Source: Methylobacterium platani (lineage in GTDB: Bacteria; Pseudomonadota; Alphaproteobacteria; Rhizobiales; Beijerinckiaceae). Taken from it: a stretch of DNA of 64,000 nucleotides. Of the stretch, positions 1 to 9,921 are shown piece by piece; position 1 is the first letter of the stretch, and the number at the start of each line of letters is the position of its first letter. Below the pieces are notes generated by a model, which was given only the letters and a program-made list of their open reading frames with translations, was not told the origin of the DNA and did not search any database. Location of the stretch: NCBI RefSeq assembly GCF_001653715.1, contig NZ_LWHQ01000010.1, positions 124,578-188,577 of the forward strand, read 5' to 3'. A program made the translations under genes and the position numbers.

Positions 1-148
1 CGCGATGACGCAGAGTGAGAGACGGGATCGCGGTTCACGGGTCCGACGCGGCGGCTGACGCCGGCCCGGCCAAGGTGTAGAACCGGCCGAACGCGCGCGG
101 ACGGCGCGGCGGGCTCACCCCTCATCCAGCAGAAGGTTCGGAGTCGTC

Positions 149-3100
149 GTGTCGATCAAGGCCGCCCTGCACCACGTCACGTCCTACACCTACGACCGGC
201 CGATCGCCCTCGGGCCCCAGGTCATCCGGCTGCGCCCCGCGCCGCACACGCGCACCCGGATCGAGAGCTACGCCCTCAAGGTCACGCCGGCCAACCACTT
301 CGTGAACTGGCAGCAGGATCCCAGCGGCAACTGGCTCGCCCGGCTGGTCTTTCCCGAGAAGACGACGCAGTTCCGGATCGAGGTCGACCTCGTCGCCGAC
401 CTGTCGGTGATCAACCCGTTCGACTTCTTCGTCGAGGACTACGCCCAGACCCGGCCCTTCGCCTATCCGGACGACCTGAAGGCCGAGCTGGGCCCCTATC
501 TCGCCGTCGAGGCCGGGGGACCGGAGATCGACGCCCTGATGGCGCGGCTGCCGGCCGAGCCGAACACGGTGCAGTTCCTGGTGGCGCTCAACGCGCTCGT
601 GCGCGACACGGTGGCCTACGTCGTGCGGATGGAGCCGGGGGTGCAGACCCCGGCCGAGACGCTCACGAAGGGCAGCGGCTCCTGCCGCGACTCGGCCTGG
701 CTGCTGGTGCAGGTTCTGCGGCGCCTCGGCCTCGCCGCCCGCTTCGTCTCCGGCTACCTGCTCCAGATGGTGCCCGACACCACCGCCGTCGACGGGCCGG
801 CCGGCACCACGACCGACTTCACCGATCTCCACGCCTGGGCCGAGGTCTACGTGCCGGGCGCCGGCTGGATCGGGCTCGACGCGACCTCGGGGCTTCTCTG
901 CGGCGAGGGCCACATCCCGCTCGCCGCCACCCCGCATTACCGCTCGGCGGCGCCGATCGCCGGCCTCGCCGAGCCGGCCGAGGTCGCGTTCGACTTCACC
1001 ATGCAGGTCACCCGCGTCGCCGAGGCCCCGCGGGTGACGAAGCCGTTCTCCGACGAGGCCTGGGCCGCCCTCGACGCGCTGGGCGAGCGCATCGACCGCG
1101 ACCTCGCCGACCAGGACGTGCGCCTGACGATGGGCGGCGAGCCGACCTTCGTGTCGGTCGACGATTTCGAGTCGCCCGAATGGAACGCCGCCGCGGTCGG
1201 GCCGACGAAGCGGGGCCTCGCCGACCAGCTGATCCGGCGGCTGCGCGAGCGCTTCGGCCCCGGCGGCTTCCTGCATTACGGCCAGGGCAAGTGGTATCCG
1301 GGCGAGAGCCTGCCGCGCTGGGCCTTCGCCCTCTACTGGCGCAAGGACGGCGAGCCGGTCTGGCGCGATCCCGCCCTCGTCGCCTCGGAGACCGGCCCGC
1401 GCGACGCCGGGATCAAGGAGGCCGAGGCGCTGATCCGCGGCCTCGCCCGGCGGCTCGGCCTCGCGCCCTACGTCCAGCCGCTCTACGAGGACCCGGATTA
1501 CTGGGAGCGCAAGGCCGCCGAGCTGCCGGTCAACGTCACCCCCCTCGACCCGAAGGTCGGCGACGAGGAATCGCAGCGGCGGATGGCCCGGGTCTACACC
1601 CGCGGGCTCGGGACGGCGGCGGCCTACGTCCTGCCGCTCGCCAACATCGCGGTCGGGGCCGACCGGCACTGGGTCTCGGAGGCCTGGCAGCTCAAGCGCG
1701 GCGCGATCTACCTGGTGCCGGGCGATTCCCCGGCGGGGTTCCGCCTGCCGCTCGCCTCGCTGCCCTACGTGCCGCCGAGCTCCTACCCGTACTACGCGCC
1801 CCAGGACCCCCTGGAGCCGCGCGGTCCCCTCGGCACCGCCGCCGGCGCCAAGCCGGGCCGCAAGCCCGCACCGGTCGGCGTCGCGGTGCGCACCGCGCTC
1901 GCGATCGAGCCGCGGGACGGGGTGCTGTGCGTGTTCATGCCGCCGATCGAGCGGGTCGACGAGTACCTCGCGCTCCTCTCGGTCCTGGAGGCGGCGGCGG
2001 CCGAGATCGGCCAGCCGCTCCACGTCGAGGGCTACGAGCCGCCCTACGACCCGCGCCTGTCGGTGATCAAGGTCACGCCCGATCCCGGCGTCATCGAGGT
2101 CAACGTCCAGCCGGCCAAAACCTGGCGCGAGGCGGTCGAGATCACCAGCGGCCTCTATCAGGATGCCCGCCAGACCCGGCTCGGCGCGCAGAAGTTCATG
2201 ATCGACGGGCGCCATACCGGCACCGGGGGCGGCAACCACGTCGTGCTCGGCGGGTCGACCCCGGCCGATTCGCCGTTCCTGCGCCGGCCCGACCTCTTGA
2301 AGAGCCTGGTGCTCTACTGGCAGCGCCACCCGTCGCTGTCCTACCTGTTCTCGGGCCTCTATGTCGGCCCGACCAGCCAGGCACCGCGGATGGACGAGGC
2401 GCGGCACGACGGGCTCTACGAGCTCGAGATCGCGCTCGCACAGGTGCCGCCGCCGGGCGGGCCCGAGCTGCCGCTCTGGCTCGTCGACCGCCTGTTCCGC
2501 AACATCCTCACCGACGTCACCGGCAACACCCACCGGTCCGAGATCTGCATCGACAAGCTGTTCTCGCCCGACGGCCCGACCGGGCGGCTCGGCCTGCTGG
2601 AATTCCGCTCGTTCGAGATGCCGCCCGAATCGCGGATGAGCCTCGCCCAGCAGGTGCTGCTGCGCGCCCTCGTCGCCTGGCTGTGGCGCGAGCCGCAAGG
2701 CGGCAGCTTCGTGCGCTGGGGCACGGCGCTCCACGACCGCTTCATGCTGCCCCACTTCCTGTGGGAGGATTTCCAGTCCGTGCTCGGCGATCTCGGCCGC
2801 GCCGGCTACGCCTTCGATCCGGCCTGGTACGAGGCGCAAGGAGAGTTCCGCTTCCCGCGCTACGGCGAGGTCGAGCGCGGCGGCGTGAAGCTCGAGCTGC
2901 GCCAGGCGCTGGAGCCCTGGCACGTACTCGGCGAGGAGGGCGCCATCGGCGGCACGGTGCGCTACGTCGATTCGTCGGTGGAGCGGCTGCAGGTCAAGGT
3001 GTCGGGGTTCGTGCCGAGCCGGCACGTCGTCACCTGCAACGGGCGGCGCCTGCCGATGACCGATACCGGCCGCTCGGGCGAGGCGGTGGCGGGCCTGCGC

Positions 3101-3400
3101 TTCAAGGCCTGGCAGCCGGCCTCGTCGATGCATCCGACCCTGCCGGTCCACGCGCCGCTGACCTTCGACGTGCTCGATACCTGGAGCGGCCGGTCGCTCG
3201 GCGGCTGCGTCTACCACGTCGCCCATCCGGGCGGGCGCAACTACGAGACCTTCCCGGTCAACACCTACGAGGCGGAGGGGCGCCGCCTCGCCCGCTTCCA
3301 GGAGAACGGCCACACCCCGGGCCGGGTGGGCGTGCCGCCGGAGGAGCCGCGGCGCGAGTTCCCGCTCACCCTCGACCTGCGCACGCCCGCGCCCCGGTGA
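149..3400 (+). CDS. Transglutaminase-like protein with C-terminal DUF2126 domain
   Basis: A 1083-residue two-part protein. Residues 1-300 are a bacterial transglutaminase N-domain followed by a papain-fold transglutaminase core with an intact triad: C179 ([10 protein letters not shown]), H228 (DLHAWAEV) and D244 (IGLDATSG). The rest is DUF2126, with the conserved [11 protein letters not shown] start near residue 328 and [14 protein letters not shown] near 690. Comparative genomics by others placed DUF2126 among glutamine-synthetase-like COOH-NH2 ligases; that is a prediction, not an assay. The GTG start at 149 gives the expected [16 protein letters not shown] beginning. The stop TGA overlaps the next gene's possible GTG start, so the genes are probably translationally coupled. 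No signal peptide is seen, so a cytoplasmic role in amide-bond formation or cleavage is inferred. Family call is firm; substrate unknown. Confidence 0.92.
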
Positions 3401-5949
3401 TCGCGGCTCCGATGAGCGCGGCCGCGACGGGCGAGGCTCTTGCGGAGGCAGGAGCCGCCGGGGCCGCGCGGGCCGACGGGCCTGCGCAGCGGCTGGCGCG
3501 CTGGACGGCGGGCTACGCCCCGCTGCCCGGCCTGCCCGACGAGCTGGTCGCCGGCGACGGCGCCCTGCGCCCGGCCTGGGACCGGTTCCTGCGCCGCCTC
3601 GCCGGGCTGCCCGAATGCGAGATCGCCGCCCGCCTCGCCGCGGCCGGGCGGCACATCCACGACACCGGCATCGCCTACCGGGCCTACGGCGAGGCGACCG
3701 AGCGCGACTGGCCGATCGGCGCCCTGCCGCTCCTGATCGAGGGGGCGGAGTGGGAGGCGATCGCCGCCGGGGTGGCGCAGCGCGCCGAGCTGCTGGAAGC
3801 GGTGCTGACCGACCTCTACGGCGACGGCGCGCTCGCCCGCGCCGGCCTGCTGCCGGCCGCCGCCGCCGCGGGCGATCCGGAATTCCTGCGCCCCCTCGTC
3901 GGCGTCGCGCCCCCGGGCGGGCGCCACCTGCATTTCTACGCCGCCGACCTCGCTCGCGGGCCGGACGGCGCCTGGCGGGTCTTGGCCGACCGGACCCAGG
4001 CGCCGTCGGGAGCCGGCCACGCCCTCGAGAACCGCCTCGTCATGGCGCGGGCCCTGCCGGAGGTCTACGGCGCGCTCGACGTCGAGCGCGTCGCCTCGTT
4101 CTTCCAGGCCTTCCGCGACGGCCTCGCGGCGGCGGCCTCGCGCCAGGACCCGCGCATCGGCCTGATGAGCTCGGGGCCCTACAGCGACACCTACGTCGAG
4201 CAGGCGGTGCTCGCCCGCTATCTCGGCTTCGCCCTCGTCGAGGGCGACGACCTCCTGGCCCGCGACGGGCTAGTGTACATCCGCACGGTCGCCGGGCTGA
4301 AGCGGGTCGACGTGCTGTGGCGGCGCATCGACGGCGACTTCGTCGACCCCCTGGAGCTCAACCCGGCCTCGCGCCTCGGCGCGCCCGGCCTCGTCGAGGC
4401 CCTGCGCGCCGGGGCGGTGGCGATGGGCAACATGCCGGGCACCGGCCTCGTCGAGAGCGCCTGGCTCGCCGCCTCGCTGCCGGCCCTGTGCGAGCGGCTG
4501 CTCGGCGAATCGTTGCGCCTGCCCGGCCTGCCGACCTGGTGGTGCGGCGATCCCGGGCAGCGCGAGGCGGTGATGGCGCGGTTCGACGCGCTCGCCTTCC
4601 GCCCGGCCGCGGCGCCGGCGCAGGGCGCCTTCACCAGCCGGGCGTTCGGCGAGGGCCGCGACGCGGCCGAGACCGAGCGCCTGCGGGCCGTCCTGCGCGA
4701 CCGGCCCGGCGACCTCGTCGCCCACGAGCCGGTGCGGCTCTCCACCGCCCCGGTCTGGGACGGCACCCGGCTGGTGCCGCGGCCCTTCGTGCTCAGGGTC
4801 TTCGCCGCCGCGACGCCGGAGGGCTGGCGGGTGATGCCCGGCGGCTTCTGCCGCATCTCCGAGACGCCGGAGGGGCGCCCGGTGGCGATGGGGGCGGGGG
4901 TACGCGCCGCCGACGTCTGGGTCCTGTCCTCCGGCTCGACCGAGGCGCAGGCGAGCCTCCTGCCGCCGAGCGACCGGGTCGCGGTGCGCCGGGTGCCCGG
5001 CCTGCTGCCGAGCCGGGCCGCCGACAACCTGTTCTGGCTCGGCCGCCACCTGGAACGGGCCGAGGCGGTGATCCGCCTCACCGTCTGCCTGCTCGACGGC
5101 GCCGGAGCCGTCTCGACCGCCGCGGAGGACCGCGCCACCTCGGCGCGCCTGCGCGCCCTGCTCCATGCCTGGGGCGCCGTCCCGGCGGTCGAGGGCACGG
5201 CGGCGGCGCTCGCCCACCACGCCCTGTCGGATGGCGGGCGATGGGGCTCGGCCCTCAGCCACGCCCTCTCGGCCCGGCGCAACGCCGCCTCCCTGCGCGA
5301 GCGCCTGTCCGGCGAGGCCTGGCGCGCGCTCTCCGCCCTGCTCGCCGTGCTGGAGGCGCCCGCCGAGGGGCCCGATTCGGAGGCCGTGCTCCTCGACCGG
5401 GCCGAGCGCGCCCTGTCGCTGACCGCGTCGCTCGCCGGCCTCGCCCAGGAAAACATGAACCGGGCCGGCGGCTTCGCCTTCGTCGACATGGGACGGCGGG
5501 TCGAGCGGGCGGTCAATGCCTGCCGCTTCGCCCTCGATTTCGGCGCCGCGGGGGCGAGCACCGACGATCTCGGGGTGCTCCTCGACCTCGTCGATTCCCG
5601 CATCTCCTACGGCGCCCGCTACATCCTCGGCGTGGCGCTGGCGCCGGTGCGCGACATGGTGCTGCTCGATCCCTACAACCCGCGCTCCCTCGCCTTCCAG
5701 GTCGAGCGCCTCGCCGAGCGCCTGGCCGGCCTGCCGGCCCTGCGCCCGGACGGGGTGGCGGAGGCGCCGGCGCGCCTGGTGGCGGGGCTGTCGGGCGAGA
5801 TCGCCGGGGCGGAGGCCGCGACCCTGCCGCTCGACACGGTGGCGGCCTGGGAAACGCGCCTGTGGACGATCGCCGAGGCGATCGGCGCGCGCTACTTCCC
5901 CGGCGGGTCGGACGCCGCGCGGCCCGAAACCCTCACCACGCTGGCCTGA
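3397..5949 (+). CDS. Circularly permuted ATP-grasp / alpha-E domain fusion protein
   Basis: An 850-residue fusion of two proteins that are often separate (COG2308 and COG2307). The first ~500 residues are a circularly permuted ATP-grasp domain, recognised by its [14 protein letters not shown] block and the following [20 protein letters not shown] segment. From about residue 530 begins the all-helical alpha-E domain ([20 protein letters not shown]). GTG at 3397 overlaps the upstream stop (GTGA); ATG at 3412 in the same frame is the alternative and would give 845 residues. ATP-grasp enzymes form acyl-phosphate intermediates and ligate amines or amino acids; the alpha-E role is unknown. It lies between two transglutaminase genes on one strand with a 4-nt overlap and a 14-nt gap, so all three probably build or modify one peptide-like product. 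The product is unknown. Confidence 0.9.
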
Positions 5950-5963
5950 GCCCCGCTCGACGA

Positions 5964-6851
5964 ATGCTCTACCGCCTGCGCCACCTGACGGCCTACGCCT
6001 ACCGCAACCCGGTCGGCTTCGCCCGCTGCTCCCTGCGGCTCGCCCCGGCGGCGGGGGAGGGGCAGGCGCCGCTCTCGCACGAGGTGGTGGTCGAGCCCGC
6101 GCCCCGCGCGGCGACCGAGCGCGGCGACTTCTTCGGCAACCGCACGGTCTCGTTCACCGTCGAGACGCCGCATCGCGAGTTCCGGATCGACGCGCGCTCC
6201 CGCGTCCGGATCGCGCGGCCGCCGCTGCCCGACCCCGGGACCGGGCCGGCCTGGGAGGCGGTGCGGGACGGGGTCCTCGGCGGCGCGAGCCTCGCCCCGG
6301 AGGCGGCCCTGCATTTCTGCGCGCCGAGCCGGCGGGTGCCGCTCCTGCCCGAGGTCACCGACTACGCGCGGGCGAGCTTCCCGGCCGGCGGCGGGGCCTA
6401 TGCGGGCGCCTTCGACCTGATGCGCCGCATCCGGGCCGACTTCACCTTCGACGCCGAGGCGACCGAGGTCGGCACGCCGCTCGCGCAGGCCTTCGCCGGC
6501 CGGCGCGGCGTGTGCCAGGATTTCTCGCACGTCATGATCGCCGCCCTGCGCGGCCTCGGCCTGCCGGCGGCCTATGTCAGCGGGTATCTGCGCACCCTGC
6601 CGCCGCCGGGCCAGCCCCGGCTCGAGGGAGCGGATGCCAGCCACGCCTGGGTCGCGGTGTGGTGCGGGGAGGGGGGATGGGTCGGCCTAGATCCGACCAA
6701 CGGCATCGGCGTGCGGGACGACCACATCGTCGTCGCCCGCGGCCGCGACTACGCCGACGTCGCGCCGGTCGCCGGCATCATCGCCGGGTCGGGCGCGCAG
6801 AGCCTGCGGGTCGCCGTGGACGTGGTGCCGGAGGACGAGGACGAGCCCTGA
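5964..6851 (+). CDS. Transglutaminase family protein
   Basis: A 295-residue protein with the bacterial transglutaminase N-domain (MLYRLRHLTAYAYRNPV) and a core with an intact triad: C184 (RGVCQDFSH), H228 (ASHAWVAV) and D243 (VGLDPTNG). ATG at 5964 lies 14 nt after the ATP-grasp/alpha-E stop, making this the last gene of the operon. It is the stand-alone counterpart of the transglutaminase half of the first gene, so the operon encodes two cysteine-triad enzymes, one ligase-like DUF2126 domain and one ATP-grasp ligase. No signal peptide or membrane segment. Related operons elsewhere carry an Anbu proteasome-like protease next to this gene; none is visible here. The enzyme could be a peptidase or amidase rather than a cross-linking enzyme. 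Confidence 0.92.
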   Translation: MLYRLRHLTAYAYRNPVGFARCSLRLAPAAGEGQAPLSHEVVVEPAPRAATERGDFFGNRTVSFTVETPHREFRIDARSRVRIARPPLPDPGTGPAWEAVRDGVLGGASLAPEAALHFCAPSRRVPLLPEVTDYARASFPAGGGAYAGAFDLMRRIRADFTFDAEATEVGTPLAQAFAGRRGVCQDFSHVMIAALRGLGLPAAYVSGYLRTLPPPGQPRLEGADASHAWVAVWCGEGGWVGLDPTNGIGVRDDHIVVARGRDYADVAPVAGIIAGSGAQSLRVAVDVVPEDEDEP

Positions 6852-7206
6852 GACGAGGTGGGCGGGCCGGGCCGATGCGCTGAACGTCGAGGAGAGATGT
6901 CCCGGCCCGCGGGAGCGACACCAGCCGAGTGCCGTCGGTCGGGACGGGACAGGGCCGGCGTGGCGCGGCAGAGAGTGGGCCGGTTCCCAGGGCCCGTCCT
7001 CAACTTGGATCAATCTCCGGCGATTTTGGCGAACCCGCCGGGCGCTCCTGCGTCAGCCTCCCGCCGGGCGGGCGATCGACTGCGGCAGGGCGGGCGGCGC
7101 GGGTCCCGCTCCCGGCGGCAACCACGCGGTCGCAGCCATGTGCCTTGCATGCCCCTGGTCGGCGCGACGCGACAGAACCAAGCTAGCGCGGCCCCGTTGC
7201 CCCGGC
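6852..7206. other. Intergenic region with no recognised element
   Basis: About 355 bases between the transglutaminase operon and a small hypothetical gene. I see no convincing gene, promoter, terminator or repeat. Short open frames here lack a ribosome-binding site or a recognisable product. Confidence 0.5.
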
Positions 7207-7482: not shown

Positions 7483-7717
7483 CGGTGTCGGAGAACGGCA
7501 CGGTCATGACCGGCCGGCCGGCCGCATCCGTCACCTCGAAGGCGCACGTGAACCAATCCCGCACCGAATGCAGTCGCGTCCGGGCGATCAGGTCGTGGGC
7601 GGCGGCGAGGGCGCGGGCGCGGGCCTCTGCCGGCCCGGCCAGCTCGTCCCCCTCGGTGTCGACCGCGAGGCCGTCGGCACCGGGACCGTGCCGCAGGTTG
7701 AAGAAGTAGAGCGACAT
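7448..7717 (-). CDS. DUF6894 family protein
   Basis: An 89-residue protein starting MSLYFFNLRHGPG, the typical opening of DUF6894, a short family abundant in Methylobacterium and relatives and without an assigned function. The C-terminus is acidic (TEDDEGSGLA). The start codon overlaps the stop of the upstream Crp/Fnr gene by one base (TGATG), so the two are translationally coupled and probably co-regulated. The 3' end overlaps the convergent small gene at 7207-7482. Confidence 0.8.
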   Translation of the reverse strand: MSLYFFNLRHGPGADGLAVDTEGDELAGPAEARARALAAAHDLIARTRLHSVRDWFTCAFEVTDAAGRPVMTVPFSDTVTEDDEGSGLA

Positions 7718-8442
7718 CAGGCGCCCTCGATCAGTCGGGCGTATTCGGCCTCGGGGGTACCGTAGCTGCCGTTCGTCAGCGCCAGGAGCCTGTCGCGGTC
7801 GAGAATCTCGATCCGCCGACGCTTGGCCCGGATGCGGCCGGCGCCCTCCAGGTTCTGGATCGCCAGCGTCACCCCCGCCCGCTGCACGCCGAGCATCATC
7901 GACAGGAACTCGTGCGTCAGCACCAGTTCGTCGCCGTCGGTCCGGTCGTGGCACATCAGAAGCCAGCGCGCGAGGCGGCCCTCGAGGCTCATGGAGGCGT
8001 GGGCGTAGGCGGTCTGGGTGATCTGGACGATCTGGACATGGACGTAGCGCAGCAGGAGCCGGCGCAGGACCGGGTTCTCCCGGATCGCGGCGCAGAACGC
8101 CTCCCGGCCGATGCTCAGCGCCTCGCCGGAGAGCTGCGCGAAGTAGACGTGGGGCGTCGTCACGCCGTCGAGCGCGACCGGGACCGCGCCGACCAGCCCC
8201 TCGCGCCCGACCAGGCCGACCTCGATCCGCCGCTCGTCGTGGGCGGTCGAGATCGAGACCATGCCGGTCTCGATGAAGAAGAGCTCCTCCACCGGCGCGT
8301 CCGGGGCGATCACCACCTCGCGCAGCTGCAGCGACACCGGTTCGAGATAGGGCTGCAGCTGCGCGAAATCCTCGGGCGCGAGCACCCTGAGGAGGCGGTT
8401 GCACAGCTTGGATTGCTGGGTCAGCGGCACAGTGTCCTCCAC
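7717..8442 (-). CDS. Crp/Fnr family transcriptional regulator
   Basis: A 241-residue regulator with an N-terminal cyclic-nucleotide-binding fold at residues ~20-130 (LREVVIAPDAPVEELFFIETG) and a winged-helix Crp-type DNA-binding domain at ~155-225 (LTHEFLSMMLGVQRAGVTLA, where the recognition helix lies). No Fnr-type N-terminal cysteine cluster is present, so an oxygen-sensing iron-sulfur centre is unlikely. The ligand is unknown. It is divergent from the receiver-Crp pair at 8747-9921 across an AT-rich region and is coupled to the downstream DUF6894 gene. Confidence 0.9.
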   Translation of the reverse strand: MEDTVPLTQQSKLCNRLLRVLAPEDFAQLQPYLEPVSLQLREVVIAPDAPVEELFFIETGMVSISTAHDERRIEVGLVGREGLVGAVPVALDGVTTPHVYFAQLSGEALSIGREAFCAAIRENPVLRRLLLRYVHVQIVQITQTAYAHASMSLEGRLARWLLMCHDRTDGDELVLTHEFLSMMLGVQRAGVTLAIQNLEGAGRIRAKRRRIEILDRDRLLALTNGSYGTPEAEYARLIEGA

Positions 8443-8746: not shown

Positions 8747-9124
8747 TTGCGAGAGGACGAACGCCATCCGATGGTGCTGCTGGTCGAGGAGGAGCCGCTG
8801 GCCGGCCTCGATCTCGGCGACGCGCTGAGGGAGGCGGGCTACCGGATCGCCGGGCCGCTGACGGGCCAGGCCGCGGCCCTGGACTGGATTGCGCGATGCA
8901 GGCCGGATCTCGCCGTCATCGATCTTCCGCTCCGGGACGGCGACGGCAGCCGGCTGGCAGGGACGCTGCGGGCGCAGGGCGTGCCGTTCCTGGTCCAGGC
9001 ACACGACGCGCGCGAGGCGGCGGCCTGCGCCGCCCTGCGCGCCGCGCCCCGGCTCGCCAAACCGGCCTGGCACGGGGACCTCGTCCACGTGCTCCGCCAG
9101 CTTTCCCGCGAGGCCCGTCGATGA
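8747..9124 (+). CDS. Single-domain response regulator (receiver only)
   Basis: A 125-residue receiver domain without an output domain. The acidic pair is EE (VLLVEEEPLAG), the phospho-acceptor is the Asp in AVIDLPLRDG, and the conserved Lys is present in RLAKPAW. The usual Thr/Ser switch residue is not obvious (PFLVQAHDA), so signalling may be atypical. TTG at 8747 is preferred because GGAGGG at 8734-8739 lies seven bases upstream; ATG at 8771 would give 117 residues. The stop overlaps the downstream Crp/Fnr start (ATGA). Receiver and Crp protein are therefore made together, and the receiver may act on it or on an unlinked histidine kinase. Confidence 0.78.
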   Translation: MREDERHPMVLLVEEEPLAGLDLGDALREAGYRIAGPLTGQAAALDWIARCRPDLAVIDLPLRDGDGSRLAGTLRAQGVPFLVQAHDAREAAACAALRAAPRLAKPAWHGDLVHVLRQLSREARR

Positions 9125-9921
9125 CGCCCACGACCCACACGAGCCACCTCGACCCGGCCTGCGGAGCGCAGCGGTCCGCGCAACTCCTCCACCCCGTCGT
9201 GCGCAAGCTCTCGGCCTACGGCCCCCTGACGGCGCAGGAGCAGGAGGCGCTGGCCGATCTCGGCGCCGGCGCCCAGCGCGTCGAGGGGCGCCACGACCTC
9301 CTGGCCGAGGGCGGGGCGCCCGAGAGCGCGGTACTGATCGTCGAAGGCGTCGCCTGCCGCTACCGCCACCGCCCGAGCGGGGCGCGCCAGATCACCGCCT
9401 ACCTGCTGCCGGGCGACCTCTGCGATCCCGATTTCGCGCTTCTCGGCCGGATGAACCACAGCGTCGGCACCCTCGGGCCCTGCCGGGTGGCGCGGGTCGC
9501 GCGCGAGGCGCTGTCCGGCCTGACCGACCGGCATCCCGGACTCGCCCGGGCGTTCCGCCTCGCCAAGCTCGCCGAGGAGGAGACGACCCGCGAATGGGTG
9601 ATGAACATCGGCTGCCGCTCGGCGATCGAGCGGGTGTCGCACCTGCTCTGCGAGCTGCACGAGCGGCTGCGCACCGTCGGCTGGGCGACGAAGGGCGGTT
9701 ACGACCTGCCCCTGACGCAGCAGGACCTCGCCGACACGACCGGCCTGTCGAACGTCCACGTCAACCGGGTGCTGCGGCAGCTACGGCTGATGCGGATCGT
9801 CGAGGTCGGCGGCCGGCGGGTCGACATCCTCAACCTGCCCGGCCTGCAGGGCATCGCCGAGTTCCAGGCCGATTACCTGCGCCCCGCCCAGGCCGCCGAC
9901 CGGCATCCGGCCTTGGCCTGA
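9121..9921 (+). CDS. Crp/Fnr family transcriptional regulator
   Basis: A 266-residue regulator. The cyclic-nucleotide-binding-like domain spans about residues 35-150 (QITAYLLPGDLCDPDFALLG) and the C-terminal winged helix about 165-245 (LPLTQQDLADTTGLSNVHVN, a canonical Crp-type recognition region). Related Rhizobiales proteins are annotated as Crp/Fnr regulators of stress or oxygen responses. No N-terminal Fnr cysteine motif is seen. ATG at 9121 overlaps the receiver stop by four bases, so translation is coupled. Confidence 0.9.
   Translation: MTPTTHTSHLDPACGAQRSAQLLHPVVRKLSAYGPLTAQEQEALADLGAGAQRVEGRHDLLAEGGAPESAVLIVEGVACRYRHRPSGARQITAYLLPGDLCDPDFALLGRMNHSVGTLGPCRVARVAREALSGLTDRHPGLARAFRLAKLAEEETTREWVMNIGCRSAIERVSHLLCELHERLRTVGWATKGGYDLPLTQQDLADTTGLSNVHVNRVLRQLRLMRIVEVGGRRVDILNLPGLQGIAEFQADYLRPAQAADRHPALA

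Follow-up and report, generated by a model that had tools for sequence, protein, structure and literature searches.

In 2009, Iyer et al. (doi 10.1039/b917682a) reportedly predicted a peptide-synthesis or tagging system in which an ATP-grasp enzyme, a glutamine synthetase (GS)-like ligase, Alpha-E and a transglutaminase are combined. Both PMC5666114 and PMC6376114 refer to this comparative-genomic prediction. Here, we examine a locus of this kind in a stretch of 64,000 nucleotides from Methylobacterium platani (contig NZ_LWHQ01000010.1, positions 124,578 to 188,577 of the forward strand), referred to as the window throughout. Translation and Pfam scans of positions 149-6851 reveal a transglutaminase-DUF2126 gene, an ATP-grasp-Alpha-E gene and a second transglutaminase gene that are tightly coupled (Table 1). 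The operon is a conserved, ordinary member of the predicted amide-bond system; its arrangement is not due to chance, as this gene trio is found again and again in the phylum. To the earlier picture we add a probable pseudo-ligase in the form of the ATP-grasp, DUF2126 as the better candidate for the catalyst and, as a likely partner, a zinc peptidase of the family PF15887. The reading we favour, which we hold with about as much confidence as doubt, is that the operon makes and cuts amide bonds, with DUF2126 as the amidoligase and the ATP-grasp-Alpha-E chain as its pseudo-ligase partner.

Table 1. Features of the DUF2126 locus. Positions are those of the window unless another contig or stretch is named.
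Feature	Position	Strand	Description
Gene 1	149..3400	+	GTG start, 1083 amino acids; transglutaminase N-terminal region and core at about residues 7-245, DUF2126 at about residues 305-1083
Gene 2	3397..5949	+	GTG start; circularly permuted ATP-grasp at about residues 44-511, Alpha-E at about residues 537-834; PF14403, PF04174, PF04168
Gene 3	5964..6851	+	stand-alone transglutaminase, triad intact; PF08379 (8.3e-23), PF01841 (5e-18)
Sigma-54-like -24/-12 element CGGCACGGGACTTGCC	L003:14952-14967		outside the window, 197 bp 5' of gene 1
PF15887 metallopeptidase with zinc ribbon	own contig C10, 123292-124443 (L003:13715-14866)	-	2.3e-108

Gene 2 overlaps gene 1 by 4 nucleotides (an ATG at 3412 is an alternative start) and is separated from gene 3 by a gap of 14 nucleotides, so that the coupling proposed in an earlier note made from the sequence alone (the original prediction) is borne out. 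The same applies to its domain assignments: scans with Pfam hidden Markov models returned PF08379 (8.1e-26), PF01841 (2.8e-18) and DUF2126 (PF09899, E=0) in gene 1, the last with a gap at profile positions 290-325, as well as CP_ATPgrasp_2 (1.4e-130) and Alpha-E (7.1e-57) in gene 2. In NCBIfam, nothing matched the operon proteins at a threshold of E <= 0.001. Sequence searches of the PDB listed one relative of gene 2, 3n6x (1.3e-68), and for gene 1 one weak match, 3isr (0.003), to its transglutaminase part.

Two candidate ligases: the fused ATP-grasp and DUF2126

In addition to the chain in which ATP-grasp is fused to Alpha-E, the genome of M. platani encodes a complete split operon on contig C72, with ATP-grasp, Alpha-E, transglutaminase and Anbu in a row. 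When 145 fused and 48 split ATP-grasps were compared, 153 columns proved to be conserved to at least 90% in the split set, and at 92 of these the fused set has the same majority residue. Ten positions likely to belong to the ATP/Mg site were picked from glutathione-synthetase sites together with strong conservation in the split copies. Of these residues, 9-10 are kept in 48/48 split copies and 0-3 in 145/145 fused copies; the window copy keeps none of the ten and hence, judged by its sequence, does not appear to be a catalytically intact ATP-grasp. The ExN motif reads LADR in the window copy versus LEDN in the split copy of the same genome, and among the 145 fused copies its E and N are never found together, with E alone in 2. 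The Lys and Gly-loop residues are replaced as well. At the Glu, at both Lys, in the Gly loop and at D432, the replacements scatter widely among the fused copies, a pattern that fits loss of these sites better than re-purposing. Cp1B (PDB 9cjn) is an active structural relative of gene 2 (Z 20.2), and exchange of each of its residues R139, D141, E163 and N165 for alanine abolished or significantly attenuated activity, according to a passage of PMC12568646.

A single branch with support of 100 separates fused from split ATP-grasps in a tree that includes every one of the 48 split copies and a subset of 45 from the 145 fused ones, computed by a quick method that gave long-branch warnings. The fused copy is also the more divergent one in all of 496 pairs drawn from 32 genomes with both copies (mean identity 0.39 for fused ATP-grasps, 0.59 for split ATP-grasps and 0.58 for DUF2126). 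At the same time, the fused chain is under constraint: 47 of its columns are conserved to at least 95%, and both ER pairs of its Alpha-E part are kept (the two E in 141 and 144 of 145 copies, both R in all 145). An AlphaFold2 (AF2) model of gene 2 with a predicted local distance difference test score (pLDDT) of 87.5 retains an intact ATP-grasp fold that matches 3n6x (Z 42.5). For the Alpha-E part, the VIA matches covering residues 537-846 were helical proteins with Z up to 10.9, below the informative level for helical bundles. Taken together, the fused ATP-grasp is probably a maintained pseudoenzyme, and its treatment as an ordinary working ligase in the original prediction is not supported in view of the lost ExN motif, lysines and Gly loop. 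The split ATP-grasp of the Anbu operon is probably active.

A plausible catalyst is instead DUF2126, which Pfam labels a putative amidoligase. The AF2 model of gene 1 (mean pLDDT 75.6) was searched with VIA-align, which re-ranks Foldseek candidates. Its transglutaminase part was matched by 3isr (Z 16.4), while rows 2-45 of 50 (44 rows) were all members of the GS-like superfamily with Z 11.1-14.1 over 230-283 aligned residues. These comprise GS itself (many near-identical entries), GmaS, the YbdK type, plant glutamate-cysteine ligase and Dop. The GS-like fold that had been proposed for DUF2126 is thus supported by the predicted model. Alignments of DUF2126 contain many invariant E, H and R residues (e.g. 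E331, E650, H697, E818 and R820), which may correspond to the metal and ATP sites of GS. Since its model resembles GS-like enzymes, DUF2126 is probably the working ligase, and it appears the likelier catalyst because the other supposed ligase, the fused ATP-grasp, looks catalytically dead.

Recurrence of the operon and its fusions

A sample of 398 genomes from the phylum, which is presumably Pseudomonadota, contains 120 with DUF2126. For a comparison of loci, a set of 161 was assembled from the own locus, stretches from 80 of the other 119 DUF2126 genomes and a further 80 stretches from named genomes. The latter are the best of 592 that align to gene 1 and therefore over-represent close relatives, among which Methylobacterium ajmalii has the closest gene 1 match (94% identity). 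Transglutaminase and DUF2126 are fused in 160/161 loci, ATP-grasp and Alpha-E in 145/161, the 16 loci without fused ATP-grasp comprising contig ends as well as intact neighbourhoods. By these counts the two fusions, which had been singled out as unusual, are the rule, and the ATP-grasp-Alpha-E fusion was rejected as a novelty. The exact simple three-gene row occurs in 92/161 loci; the others have this row plus extra genes, or a different order. Every DUF2126 genome also has Alpha-E (120/120). Although DUF2126 is this common, none of the papers searched mentions it by name; its accession PF09899 occurs in one of them, PMC11597610.

Neighbouring genes were surveyed as open reading frames of at least 120 amino acids, other than the core genes, Anbu and PF15887, which were masked, across 101 non-redundant loci. 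This yielded mainly generic-looking clusters and no clear candidate for a substrate gene. Neither support for the polyamine-linked metabolite considered in the original prediction nor evidence contradicting it came to light. Frequent clusters, named from reading their sequences, were apparent transporters (23 loci), dehydrogenases (11 loci) and glycogen or trehalose genes (3-4 loci). A small protein encoded 3' of the operon (window 7207 onward) has a relative in one other locus, L123. Two open reading frames further 3', at window positions 7717-8442 (minus strand) and 8896-9921 (plus strand), resemble Crp/Fnr-type regulators by eye. In locus L059 (genome G389), the matches to DUF2126 and to a PF15887 gene close to it are each split over two frames that overlap or adjoin, like a frameshifted or pseudogene copy.

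Transglutaminases, the PF15887 zinc peptidase and Anbu

Both transglutaminases have a complete Cys-His-Asp core, as had been expected. The triad of gene 1 (C179/H228/D244) is invariant in alignments and intact in 160/160 sequences of its type, and C, H and D are aligned in gene 3. Among 137 sequences of the gene-3 type, placed by a distance rule, C and H are present in 137 each and D in 136, with one gap. A third class of transglutaminases, termed S (n=30), mixes split-operon types, some gene-3 types placed by the distance rule and one divergent sequence (L214).

In the split operons, the catalytic Cys of the transglutaminase is missing on contig C72 of the own genome (L011:10608-11507) and in L203, L204 and L231. 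It is replaced by Gly in the own genome, G167 and G191, and by Pro in G382, and all four of these genomes carry the DUF2126 cluster. Nine other genomes of the family that were examined keep the Cys; of these, G028, G143, G151, G271 and G187 have a DUF2126 cluster and G012, G297, G004 and G059 do not.

Divergent from the operon and outside the window, 282 bp upstream of gene 1, lies a gene for a PF15887 zinc peptidase, with a second copy on contig C47. PF15887 occurs in 72/398 genomes, three of which (G200, G217 and G287) have partial matches only; 70 of the 72 have Alpha-E and 58 have DUF2126. The 212 genomes with Alpha-E divide into 58 with both PF15887 and DUF2126, 12 with PF15887 only, 62 with DUF2126 only and 80 with neither (Fisher p 3e-8; this and the following co-occurrence tests carry no phylogenetic correction). 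Among the 80 fetched DUF2126 genomes, 35 have PF15887 anywhere, and in 14 of these, from 9 families, it lies inside the fetched DUF2126 stretch. PF15887 is hence likely a partner of the DUF2126 system. It also appears in four split-operon stretches (L219-L222) together with ATP-grasp and Alpha-E, in three of them with Anbu, and without a transglutaminase. Elsewhere in the respective genomes, a transglutaminase N-terminal region is clear in G267, below cut-off in G186 and absent from G288 and G102. Within the 92 Alpha-E genomes that lack DUF2126, this region is absent or below cut-off in 5/12 with PF15887 versus 2/80 without (Fisher p 3e-4). PF15887 is thus over-represented where Alpha-E genomes lack the transglutaminase, in small numbers and few lineages. 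This excess hints that the transglutaminases do peptidase-like work, i.e. that they act as amide hydrolases.

The original prediction had pointed out that no Anbu gene is adjacent. For the neighbourhood this is correct, with no match in the 35-kb stretch around the own locus; elsewhere, the genome does have Anbu, in the split operon on contig C72. A genome search with the Pfam Proteasome profile listed only another gene, Anbu scoring 21.9 against a cut-off of 22.4. Anbu lies within the stretch in 13/161 DUF2126 loci. At the level of genomes, a survey with one query protein, which may miss divergent Anbu, gave matches in 145/398 genomes; 76 of the 120 DUF2126 genomes match and 44 do not. Among the 212 Alpha-E genomes, Anbu is associated neither with PF15887 (p 0.12) nor with DUF2126 (p 0.24). 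PF15887 was therefore rejected as a plain stand-in for Anbu. The ATP-grasp of the Anbu operon from Yersinia releases phosphate from ATP, as described in a passage of PMC6376114.

Possible functions and relation to known systems

In the scheme that we favour, the three genes would form one operon that makes and cuts amide bonds on a small molecule or peptide. DUF2126 would be an ATP-dependent amidoligase that activates a carboxylate as acyl-phosphate and then joins it to an amine, and the two transglutaminases may act on the resulting bond as papain-like amide hydrolases or transferases. The ATP-grasp-Alpha-E chain, with its fold and several Arg and Asp residues kept, would be a pseudo-ligase that could serve as a substrate-binding or scaffolding partner. 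The split ATP-grasp and Alpha-E encoded in the Anbu operon are its paralogues, and the DUF2126 and Anbu loci would probably serve one pathway.

Several points weigh against this scheme. The choice of the ten ATP-grasp positions leaned towards lost sites: at 7 of 24 site positions listed (D151, P373, Q410, R434, G468, G469 and D473), none of them among the ten, most fused copies have the residue that predominates in the split set, with D or E at position 151 in 145/145, and the window copy retains D151, P373, R434, G468 and D473. Some replacements are themselves conserved (N166 to R in 130/145, R168 to Q in 124/145 and S174 to G in 144/145), so that re-purposing fits as well as loss. Residues E163 and N165 of Cp1B may be equivalent to the ExN motif, having been matched by motif and not by superposition. 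The fused chain is not always needed, since 9/120 DUF2126 genomes have one Alpha-E match only and in L102 (G036) and L108 (G076) DUF2126 lies beside a split operon or ATP-grasp, the stretch being devoid of a fused one; a single Alpha-E match was found in the whole of G036. As for DUF2126, the matches by Foldseek without re-ranking were weak (E=0.13 for the best GS row shown), and a profile comparison with GCS2 (hhalign, 11 GCS2 open reading frames, shallow alignments) gave no link (probability 0.05). Finally, when proteins of the Anbu operon from Yersinia were used in a pull-down, they showed no specific interaction, as stated in a passage of PMC6376114.

A more specific version of the scheme, to which we give somewhat less than an even chance, is a swap of ligases. 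A GS-fold ligase would have replaced the ATP-grasp paralogue, which would survive throughout the sampled lineage as a non-catalytic, substrate-binding partner fused to Alpha-E, and the transglutaminases would be hydrolases replaceable by the PF15887 zinc peptidase.

Rather unlikely, in our estimate, is a degradative operon. In this reading, DUF2126 would hydrolyse amides in the manner of Dop, a depupylase with the GS fold, and together with the transglutaminases it would release nitrogen from an amide or peptide when nitrogen is limiting. Dop is among the structural matches of DUF2126 (Z 11.1-12.4), yet ligases score equal to or above it. The presence of the zinc peptidase where the transglutaminase is absent would fit degradation, too. 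Passages of PMC8050072 report that PP_2685 (proteasome beta-type) and PP_2688 (circularly permuted ATP-grasp) of P. putida are higher on nitrate versus ammonium (log2 4.44 and 3.99), and a passage of PMC3597751 describes marine metagenomes in which the domains transglutaminase-N, Alpha-E and ATP-grasp fall into a group with urea metabolism; the expression data, however, concern Anbu-type genes and not DUF2126. A further point in favour of this reading is the sigma-54-like element upstream of gene 1. Both boxes of CGGCACGGGACTTGCC are kept in L123 and L043, and they do not occur in the same form in nine other family members scanned. With approximate, author-set weights, a score of at least 12.5 was reached in 14/159 upstream regions versus 2.6 expected, a modest enrichment. 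A strict pattern was found in 0/160 upstream regions, and a loose one in 10/160 on the forward strand (1.3 expected) and nearly as often, in 8/160, on the reverse strand. A search for sigma-70 promoters in window positions 1-7200 gave none.

Less probable still are the two readings in which the fused ATP-grasp is active. It could be atypical, using other residues for ATP or performing other chemistry; atypical ATP-grasps exist, and the persisting constraint as well as the conserved replacements would agree with such an enzyme, whereas the wide variation at D432, in the Gly loop and at the Glu and Lys positions speaks against it. Alternatively, both ligases could work in the usual way, one residue being added by ATP-grasp and another by DUF2126, with trimming or cross-linking by the transglutaminases. 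This view, which was that of the original prediction and reportedly that of Iyer et al., is in keeping with the conserved co-location, the intact fold and the acidic residue at D151 plus R434 and D473 in nearly every fused copy, and is doubtful to the same degree in light of the lost ExN motif, lysines and Gly loop, with 0-3 of the ten chosen residues kept in 145/145 fused copies.

If the fused ATP-grasp is dead, assays on it would fail and effort belongs on DUF2126, while the split ATP-grasp and PF15887 become the natural partners to test. It would thereby also become easier to find out whether the Anbu-linked pathway makes or breaks a compound, and which one.

Compared with the system predicted in 2009, the operon shares the domains and the association of the genes; it differs by an ATP-grasp without most of the ATP/Mg-type residues, by the lack of Anbu in the locus and by the adjacent PF15887 zinc peptidase. 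With the Anbu operon, as found on contig C72, it has homologous ATP-grasp, Alpha-E and transglutaminase in common. The C72 operon, in contrast, is devoid of DUF2126, its ATP-grasp is not joined to Alpha-E and has kept the residues of the ExN motif, the Lys positions and the Gly loop, and its transglutaminase lacks the catalytic Cys, unlike those of the window. Hence, contig C72 and not the window locus matches the canonical Anbu row of split ATP-grasp, Alpha-E, transglutaminase and Anbu. Residues 44-511 of gene 2 have the fold of glutathione and glutathionylspermidine synthetases, YgiC/YjfC and Cp1B, but are without the ExN motif and other ATP-site residues of these ligases. DUF2126, in turn, shares its predicted fold with the GS-like amidoligases (GS, GmaS, YbdK, plant glutamate-cysteine ligase and Dop), from which it is set apart by its fusion to a transglutaminase and by the missing sequence-profile link in the one test made, on shallow alignments.

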